In this document: piece after piece, positions 2,457 through 61,017 of the stretch
Layout of the letters: each line of letters begins with the position of its first letter
Position numbering within the stretch: the first letter of the stretch is position 1
NCBI GenBank assembly: GCA_947039395.1
Contig: CAMQYS010000003.1
Span: 1-64,000 of the forward strand
Length of the DNA: 64,000 nt
DNA from: an uncultured Deferribacteraceae bacterium
Lineage (GTDB): Bacteria > Chrysiogenota > Deferribacteres > Deferribacterales > Mucispirillaceae
Reading direction: 5' to 3'
The notes under the pieces: generated by a model
Told to the model about the DNA's origin: nothing
What the model saw: only the letters and a program-made list of their open reading frames with translations
Databases searched by the model: none
Program-made: the position numbers and the translations under genes

Positions 2457-3312
2457 CTACCACCTGAGTTCCTATACCTGAATCTGTAAAAATTTCTAAC
2501 AGTACCGAATGTAATACTCGTCCATCTATTATATGTGCCTTAGTTACACCTGATTTTATAGCCGATGCTGCACAATCAACTTTTGGGATCATTCCACCTG
2601 TTAATGTGCCATCTGTACGCAATCTCTCTGCATCTGATAATTTAATAGTTGATATTCTATCTCCTGATTTATCTTTCACACCATCTACATCTGTTAAAAG
2701 TATCAACTTCTCTGCCTGTAACGCTGATGCAATCGCTCCTGCTGCTACATCTGCATTAATATTAAATGGAGTAAAATCTGAACCTACACCGATCGGTGCT
2801 ATAACTGGGATAAATTTCTCAGCTATATGATTTATAACTTCTGTATTTACACTTTTTATATCCCCTACTAAGCCTATATCTACTTTCTTACCGTTCTCAT
2901 CTAAATATAGTTTATCCGCAACAATCAAATTAGCATCTCTACCTGATAGCCCTAACGCTGAACCGCCCGCTTTATTTATCAATGATACGATATGTTTATT
3001 TATTTTACCTGATAAAACCATCTCGATTATCTCTATAGAATCAGAATCTGTTACACGCATTCCACTCTTAAATTCAGACTTAATAGATAATCTCTCTAAC
3101 ATATCTCCTATCTGTGGCCCACCGCCATGAACTATTATAACTTTTATACCAACATAATGTAATAAAGTTATATCTTGTGCAAAACTATATTGATAATCAC
3201 TATCTTCCATAGCATGTCCACCATACTTTATTACAAACGTCTTACCAGAAAATCTATTGATATAAGGGAGACTCTCTACCAATATCGACGCTTTATCAAT
3301 TATATCTTTCAT
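2449..3312 (-). CDS. argB: Acetylglutamate kinase
   Basis: Phosphorylates N-acetyl-L-glutamate in the second step of arginine synthesis. The amino acid kinase signatures are visible: KYGGHAM near residue 28, HGGGPQIGDML near 65, and the C-terminal TDGTLTGGMIPKVD substrate region. I prefer the ATG at 3312 (SD AAAGGG five bases before) over a GTG two codons upstream. That gives 287 residues, normal for ArgB. It is the first gene of an argB-pcm pair; no other arg gene lies in the window. Confidence 0.95.
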   Translation of the reverse strand: MKDIIDKASILVESLPYINRFSGKTFVIKYGGHAMEDSDYQYSFAQDITLLHYVGIKVIIVHGGGPQIGDMLERLSIKSEFKSGMRVTDSDSIEIIEMVLSGKINKHIVSLINKAGGSALGLSGRDANLIVADKLYLDENGKKVDIGLVGDIKSVNTEVINHIAEKFIPVIAPIGVGSDFTPFNINADVAAGAIASALQAEKLILLTDVDGVKDKSGDRISTIKLSDAERLRTDGTLTGGMIPKVDCAASAIKSGVTKAHIIDGRVLHSVLLEIFTDSGIGTQVVDG

Positions 3313-58384: not shown

Positions 58385-60124
58385 ATGAGTAAATTTCTAT
58401 TTTTTGTATTGTTATTTGTAGCATATACTAACTCACTTTTTGCATCAATATTAACTTTTACTGATACTTCCTCTGTATCTGCAAAATCGTCACAATCAAA
58501 TAAAATTATTACTGACTATCTTAAAGTAAATACTTTTTTAAATATTATAGATCAATCAGTGCCGTATCTTCTTCAATCTCCAGAGCTTGCAAATAGAACA
58601 GTTAATCAAGATGAAATAAAATATCTAGCATCAATCGTTGCAAGAATATCTATTGATACTTTAAATCTATCTAAAAAACCTAAAAAAGATAGCAAAACAG
58701 TAACAACTGGTGAGATGACACTTATTGTCACAATAGATACAGATACTATTAGTAGATTTTTAGATAAATCATTAGAAAATAATCAGTTTAAAGCGTATGC
58801 AAAACTACTCTATAATGATATGACCGCTATGCTTACTAGTTTAACTGAAGCTACTAAAAACAATACAGCTATTTTAGATGAAGATGTAATACGGTTATTC
58901 TCTCTTCAAAGATCTAGATCATACGAAATGAACCAGCTTGCATATAATAATTTTATAAAAACAGCTACTGAAAAAGAGATCAGCAGTAAAGCATATAAAG
59001 TAAAAGCTAAAAAGAAAGAAACACAAATCAATTATATTTTAAGTGATATTAATGAAAATGAAAAAATACTTAATGAATTTATCGATCAAGAGATAGAAAA
59101 AATATATGAAATATCTGAAAGTATTGTTAATCATATTCAAGTTGAGGGTGAAAAATATATTAAAAATATCCCAGAATTCTCTCTTGATAGCGTAACTAAT
59201 ATTGTTGAAGCTAAAAACTATGCTATAGGGCTTAGAAAAGAAATTATTAATACAACCGAACAATATCTTAATTATACTCAACCACTGTTTAATAAAATAC
59301 AGCTATCATTTACTGATTTACAAACTGTGTTAGAGTCTTATCAATTATACGATGTTGAACCGATAAAAAGTAGATGGGAAGCTAGTTATCAATATCAATT
59401 TAGATTAGATAACTATAAGAAACGTTTAGAAAAAACTCAACCACTACTACAGAATAATTCAGCACGTTTTAATCAATTAAAAACAGAAATTACTGCTCAA
59501 GTAAAAATAGCAGCATATATTGAACTTATAAAAATATTGACTCCTTATGAAAATGCTTTACAAAATGCACAACTTCACCAGTGGATAGGTCATGTGAACG
59601 AATATGCATATGTGATGGATCTAGGCGACTTAGATAGAGTGCTTGGAACAATTCCATTCAATGTTAGGTACGATGGCATAGAGTATATATTTAACTTTAA
59701 TGTTAATGACTTTAGTACAGATAAAATAATATATTTTCTTACCAATCCATCACGATTTGGAGCGTATCCTCTTTTTAGAATGATCCCCAATGGTGAAACT
59801 ATATATGATATCGGACAGGTTCTTTCTGGTTTTATGATAAAAATTAGACCTGATGATATATCTCAAACATTTTTAGTTAACGATAATCAGACACTCTTTT
59901 CAGAAATAAAATATAGTGATAAATTTAGAGAACTGTTAAATGAAGAAGCAACTATCTTAAATCTACTTTTAGAAAATAATACAGTAATCAATACAGATAA
60001 TAAAAGTAGCAATAAAGATATTCTCAATGCTCCTCCAACATCATCTGAAATTGAAGAACGTATATTGATTATCTCTGATAATAGTAAAAATTACAAAAAA
60101 AAAAATCGCCTACTATTAAGTTAA
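58385..60124 (+). CDS. Large secreted helical protein, N-terminal part ending in an A-run frameshift
   Basis: 579 codons in this frame. Signal peptide MSKFLFFVLLFVAYTNSLFA, then a long helical region rich in Lys, Glu, Asn and Tyr (coiled-coil-like near residues 190-290), and a mixed region with DLGDLDRVLGTIPFNVRYDG and GAYPLFRMIPNGETIYD. No family recognised. The frame ends YKKKNRLLLS just after an 11-A run (60095-60105). With one extra A the frame would continue without a stop to 61017, giving about 877 residues. Likely periplasmic or surface-located. Confidence 0.8.
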   Translation: MSKFLFFVLLFVAYTNSLFASILTFTDTSSVSAKSSQSNKIITDYLKVNTFLNIIDQSVPYLLQSPELANRTVNQDEIKYLASIVARISIDTLNLSKKPKKDSKTVTTGEMTLIVTIDTDTISRFLDKSLENNQFKAYAKLLYNDMTAMLTSLTEATKNNTAILDEDVIRLFSLQRSRSYEMNQLAYNNFIKTATEKEISSKAYKVKAKKKETQINYILSDINENEKILNEFIDQEIEKIYEISESIVNHIQVEGEKYIKNIPEFSLDSVTNIVEAKNYAIGLRKEIINTTEQYLNYTQPLFNKIQLSFTDLQTVLESYQLYDVEPIKSRWEASYQYQFRLDNYKKRLEKTQPLLQNNSARFNQLKTEITAQVKIAAYIELIKILTPYENALQNAQLHQWIGHVNEYAYVMDLGDLDRVLGTIPFNVRYDGIEYIFNFNVNDFSTDKIIYFLTNPSRFGAYPLFRMIPNGETIYDIGQVLSGFMIKIRPDDISQTFLVNDNQTLFSEIKYSDKFRELLNEEATILNLLLENNTVINTDNKSSNKDILNAPPTSSEIEERILIISDNSKNYKKKNRLLLS

Positions 60125-61017
60125 ATTATACCTCTACTTATCCATCTTTTAGTAGAGTTTCTCCTCTATTTGTTCAGCCAATAATAATTAAAGTTGCAAA
60201 TATTGAAAAAATGGAAGTATCAGTTCAAGAAGATCTTGATAATATAAATATTACGAATAATAGCAATTCTATCAAAAATGGTAAAAAATCTCTTACTGTT
60301 GAGAGTAACTCTAATATTAAAATTTTACCAACTAAAGATCTCTCATCTGCTACTACTTTATCTCCTTACTCCCATCTCAATACTCTTAATATTAATCGCT
60401 ATGAACTCAATGTGGACTTAGATGATATTATTCATGCGATAAACATCAATGATAAACTTGAAAATACCACTAAATTAGTTTATTCAGGAAGTATACTTTT
60501 AAATGTATCTAAACCAGTATTTGCTTTTAGTGGCAATGATTTCTCTAATCCGTTAGTATCTGGAGGAATTGGTGTTGTTGGACAGTATCAACTACCTTTC
60601 TATATGGCTCTTGAATCACAAATATCTTACTCTAATGAACTACCATCTCTAGGTGATACAACGCTATCAAGCTATACAGTTAATAAGTTAGATTATATGA
60701 TAAATATATTATATCAACAAACAATGTATAGTGATAATACAGTACTGATAATGCCTTTTGCAGGCATTGGTTTTGGTGGATCAACTTTCTTTCTTGACAG
60801 ATACAATCCTATTATAGATAATATTGAACCGATAAACGCTGACGCTATTACTTCATTTCTTATGTCATCGAAAATAGGATTAAGAGTTACAACATCAATA
60901 TTTATATTTTCTATCGGTGGACAGTATATGTATTCAAGACCAGATATTAATGGTTCGTTGAGAAATTTTGACTCATTTGTGTTCTTTTTTGAAGCAGGAA
61001 CATGGTTTTCTAAATAA
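60106..61017 (+). CDS. C-terminal beta-barrel-like part of the same protein (shifted frame)
   Basis: Open from the A-run onward in the other frame (SPTIKLNYTSTYPSFSRVSP), about 303 codons; the first ATG is at 60211 without an SD, so independent translation is unlikely. The second half shows alternating amphipathic strands (GGIGVVGQYQLPFYMALESQ, TVLIMPFAGIGFGGSTFF, FIFSIGGQYMYSRPDI) ending FEAGTWFSK, the look of an eight-stranded outer-membrane barrel. The intact protein would thus be a helical passenger or periplasmic domain tethered to the outer membrane. Confidence 0.7.
   Translation, partial: SPTIKLNYTSTYPSFSRVSPLFVQPIIIKVANIEKMEVSVQEDLDNINITNNSNSIKNGKKSLTVESNSNIKILPTKDLSSATTLSPYSHLNTLNINRYELNVDLDDIIHAININDKLENTTKLVYSGSILLNVSKPVFAFSGNDFSNPLVSGGIGVVGQYQLPFYMALESQISYSNELPSLGDTTLSSYTVNKLDYMINILYQQTMYSDNTVLIMPFAGIGFGGSTFFLDRYNPIIDNIEPINADAITSFLMSSKIGLRVTTSIFIFSIGGQYMYSRPDINGSLRNFDSFVFFFEAGTWFSK

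Follow-up and report, generated by a model that had tools for sequence, protein, structure and literature searches.

In Citrobacter rodentium, the gene tssM1 carries an A11 tract with the 0-frame stop 28 nt downstream, and RNA polymerase slippage of 20–25% occurs there; the longer form of the protein requires slippage, and both forms are functional (PMC4256274). In Shigella, two overlapping frames of mxiE and spa13 are joined by slippage to give a product with a C-terminal extension (PMC1088944, PMC5009743). A two-ORF type of dnaX with 10 As has been attributed to transcriptional realignment (Antonov et al., 2013, PMC3711429), and Thermus dnaX has an A9 tract. Finally, in the AT-rich genomes of Blochmannia and Buchnera, genes that are out of frame at A-tracts are thought to be restored by slippage, and coding tracts of A≥9, of which there are more than 100 per genome, have been put down to AT bias (PMC3017870).

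The gene that we describe lies in a window of 64,000 nt, which is part of contig 3 of the 2.11 Mb assembly of an uncultured Deferribacteraceae bacterium. Its 0-frame product, ORF1 (58385–60124, plus strand), has 579 amino acids, with a signal-peptide-like N-terminus (MSKFLFFVLLFVAYTNSLFA), a long helical region, and a short mixed domain, and it ends six codons past the KKK of an A11 tract (60095–60105, plus strand). A second frame has no stops from 60088 to 61017. Read from the tract (60103–61017, plus strand), it runs for 304 codons and encodes a variable linker and then a conserved C-terminal domain of about 195 residues. The intervening segment (60106–60124, plus strand) is dual-coded: it holds the last residues and the TAA stop of the 0 frame, and the second frame reads through it. 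Joining the frames takes one more nucleotide in the message (or two fewer), which is equivalent to a −1 step by the ribosome. The site was pointed out by a sequence-only reading, and our rereading of the sequence bore out its description: the A11 tract, the ORF1 stop 19 nt past the end of the tract, the absence of stops in the other frame between the tract and 61017, and a fusion of about 877 residues if there were 12 As.

Like tssM1, this gene has an A11 just before the 0-frame stop. Unlike tssM1, its site is conserved across a genus; also, TssM1 is an unrelated inner-membrane component of the T6SS, and slippage has been proven experimentally for tssM1, whereas here we infer it. As with mxiE and spa13, there are two overlapping frames and we propose that slippage yields a C-terminal extension, but those are type III secretion genes without homology to this one. 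The two-ORF dnaX and Thermus dnaX share with it an A-run, an immediate 0-frame stop, and, as we propose here, slippage for the longer product. In contrast to the dnaX type, this is a different gene, and its tract varies from 9 to 11 A with the frame kept.

The gene is present in all four available members of the genus, each a different species (the three congeners are MAGs of uncultured Deferribacteraceae). At the junction, the tract is A11, A10, A9, and A9, always at the same position; the 0-frame stop (TAA, TAG, TAA, and TAA) is exactly 30 nt from the start of the tract in every species; and each species keeps the second frame open, in identical relation to the 0 frame. The first nine As of the tract are invariant, as compared to 32.5% of 120 flanking columns, and the longest invariant run in the flanks is four columns. 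These species have diverged to a dS of about 0.5–0.7, and ORF1 is 76–77% identical to its counterparts in the three congeners. That four species have all retained the tract, the stop, and the relation between the frames is far beyond chance.

The dN/dS of ORF1 is 0.13–0.21 in comparisons with the congeners, and it is lower still (0.06–0.11) over the final 194 codons of the second frame. The linker directly after the tract is variable, with dN/dS of about 0.3–0.7 where it could be estimated. Purifying selection is thus clear for the downstream domain rather than for the linker. A start-codon scan of the four species found no ATG, GTG, or TTG that is conserved in the second frame before residue ~170. 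Because the domain is under strong purifying selection and no conserved start precedes that residue, the domain is most likely made through the junction.

We propose that the A-tract is a conserved, programmed site of transcriptional slippage and that every cell makes two forms in a fixed proportion, which we consider likely. RNA polymerase would add one A (or an equivalent number modulo 3) at the tract in some of the transcripts. Without slippage, the mRNA would give the secreted protein of 579 residues, which terminates a few residues past the tract, and slipped mRNA would give a fusion of about 877 residues with the C-terminal domain, which is probably an outer-membrane barrel. Each cell would then contain an anchored form together with one that is released or periplasmic, at a constant ratio. 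Very probably this is a real, conserved, programmed two-product gene; that the polymerase slips rather than the ribosome, the ratio of the products, and the location of each form are what we infer. The sequence-only reading had named transcriptional slippage as one possibility, and this is the best reading, backed by the conservation in all four species, the selection on the downstream domain, and the parallels in dnaX and a CheW-CheZ gene (see below). It had also proposed a surface-anchored form and a truncated soluble form. This is plausible, but it may be wrong because the identity of the barrel is weak (a distant match to an outer-membrane protein and models with low pLDDT).

The main rival to polymerase slippage is programmed −1 ribosomal frameshifting on the A-run, which would join the frames during translation. 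The needed step is −1, and a heptamer of the form A_AAA_AAA or A_AAA_AAC is in frame at this gene (A_AAA_AAA, within the A11 tract), at dnaX, and at CheW-CheZ, so a −1 shift fits; we count this, along with the poor conservation of the linker past the tract, against the slippage reading. Also, the RNA downstream of the dnaX tract folds better than shuffled sequences do in two of the four species (z = −2.8 and −2.3). However, sites of −1 ribosomal frameshifting usually have a downstream RNA structure or an upstream SD-like stimulator. In the four species, we found no SD-like motif upstream of the window gene's tract, and the RNA downstream of it does not consistently form a stable structure (z = −1.3 to +0.6, for pseudoknot-free folds). 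Furthermore, the tracts stay at 9–11 A, which is longer than the 7 A that a ribosomal heptamer needs. Polymerase slippage explains the length of the tracts, the avoidance of such runs elsewhere (see below), and why no obvious stimulators of ribosomal shifting are present. Overall, we regard ribosomal frameshifting as unlikely.

The other explanations have less to recommend them. A long A-tract in a surface-type gene is the classical setting for phase variation, in which replication slippage would alter the length of the tract in the DNA and turn the long form on or off between cells. Phase variation predicts differing frame states, but all four species have the same one, and the distance from tract to stop is 30 nt despite tracts of 9, 9, 10, and 11 A, so there has been no net insertion or deletion between species. 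Also, dnaX and CheW-CheZ are split in the same way, yet they are not contingency genes. Given the identical frame relation and the fixed distance, phase variation, which the sequence-only reading had offered along with slippage, is disfavoured and in our view improbable, and instead of the proposed switch between forms, a constant ratio in every cell is more likely. We give even less weight to an error in the assembly, to decay of the gene, or to a pair of ordinary genes that are simply separate, which together seem very improbable. It is true that homopolymers are error-prone and that an ATG is available at 60211. However, this ATG is present only in the species of the window and has no evident ribosome-binding site, and a product that started there would have no signal peptide. 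Decay is incompatible with the dN/dS of the downstream domain, and an assembly error is practically excluded, as the same split is found in four independently assembled genomes.

Scanning the whole genome, we found 49 tracts of A≥9 (40 A9, 8 A10, and 1 A11). No A/T run in the assembly is longer than the A11 of the window gene, and all other homopolymers in the window are of 8 or fewer. Nevertheless, the length of this tract by itself is within chance at 30% GC: about 1.1 runs of A≥11 would be expected in the window, given its P(A|AAA). On the coding strands of the window, there is one run of A≥9, versus 5.9 in synonymous shuffles, and there are seven of A≥8, versus 16. In addition, seven of the eight KKK runs in the window's coding sequences are interrupted by AAG (the exception is the A11 site), which is consistent with selection against slippery A-runs. 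Following the reasoning of an earlier study (PMC1088944), depletion of coding A-runs and lysine triplets broken by AAG are the signature that would be expected of a slippage-prone polymerase. This differs from the situation in Blochmannia and Buchnera: here, long coding A-runs are depleted and three genes are conservedly split.

The other two split genes emerged from a survey of the surroundings of this genome's other A≥9 tracts; in the congeners, we looked at A10 tracts. Both dnaX and CheW-CheZ are split like the window gene, with the same direction of shift. In dnaX, the A10 tract (contig C17, 32714–32723, minus strand) reads AAA AAA AAA AGA TAG, so that a gamma-like product of about 400 amino acids ends in KKKR and is followed by a 153-amino-acid tau tail in the −1 frame. 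Each of the genus's four species has this layout at A10, and the tau tail has a dN/dS of 0.07–0.15. By its sequence, the gene belongs to the published two-ORF type. Elsewhere in the family or order, most dnaX genes are single ORFs that contain in-frame A9 or A10 tracts. One sister-genus genome (G005) has a dnaX split of its own at an A9 (position 3007 of the locus), which is nearer to the end of the gene and past which the −1 frame continues for another 61 codons; this split arose independently of the A10 split of the genus.

The chemotaxis gene is split out of frame at an A10 tract (contig C1, 162639–162648, minus strand). Its N-terminal part is a CheW domain (PF01584), and its tail is homologous to a CheZ domain: it matches sister-genus proteins at E of about 1e−34, one of which carries CheZ (PF04344) above the cut-off. 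The split at A10 is present in this genome and in two congeners; in the third (G003), the tract is where the contig ends, and the 0 frame stops there. In the sister genera, CheW-CheZ is one ORF of 577–589 amino acids, and the copies that we read hold two in-frame A10 or A11 tracts. Thus, dnaX and CheW-CheZ keep slippery tracts across the family, and the short product is what the default frame gives in this genus. The remaining A10 tracts that we examined in the congeners are outside of long ORFs or at the end of a gene. At one A9 in this genome, near the end of contig C53, a transposase-like frame of 104 codons stops; it lacks a long second frame and is possibly a fragment.

We read the window gene as a new programmed slippage gene within a small genus-wide set. 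A broader proposal is that the whole genus uses polymerase slippage at conserved A-tracts as a constitutive device for making two products from a few dedicated genes that are unrelated to one another (the clamp loader, CheW-CheZ, and an envelope protein that is either released or anchored), with the chemotaxis default inverted relative to the in-frame A10 of the sister genera; we consider the arguments for and against this to be evenly balanced. CheW-CheZ suggests how two products could persist while the default frame flips; slippage would give products of the same two kinds in this genus and in the sister genera, with opposite default frames. Envelope and chemotaxis genes under conserved slippage are rare in the searchable literature. 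Our literature search found no paper linking CheW or CheZ to slippage and none on Mucispirillum and slippage in this sense. Automatic annotation would list such split genes as truncated or broken. With three of them across the genus, it becomes testable whether this lineage has co-tuned its RNA polymerase and its A-tracts.

Single-ORF proteins of 703–717 amino acids from the sister genera are 20–23% identical to ORF1 over about 500 residues (E of 1e−9 to 1e−12). Their reading frame continues unbroken through some 150 further C-terminal residues, the last of which is F, and they have no A≥8 run at the matching junction. These proteins support the view that a helical region plus a C-terminal domain is the full form of the architecture. 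When profiles were compared, the downstream domain could not be shown to be homologous to the C-terminal domain of these single-ORF proteins. We therefore speak of an ancestral intact fusion in terms of architecture only. Searches of NCBIfam and of PDB sequences gave no match for the relatives of ORF1.

As for the C-terminal domain, the sequence-only reading had called it barrel-like. An outer-membrane barrel is plausible and weakly supported: in Pfam, the downstream part has no direct match to PF13505, and its match to HP_OMP (E = 0.021) is below the cut-off. A match to Pox_RNA_Pol_22 is also below the cut-off, and we judged both to be chance or weak. AlphaFold models, built from only four sequences, have a pLDDT of 27 for the downstream part and 37 for ORF1. 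The barrel reading draws on the HP_OMP match and on a similarity: the downstream domain resembles a separate 210-amino-acid protein from a sister genus (35% identity over 91 amino acids), which itself has a weak match, below the cut-off, to OMP_b-brl (PF13505).
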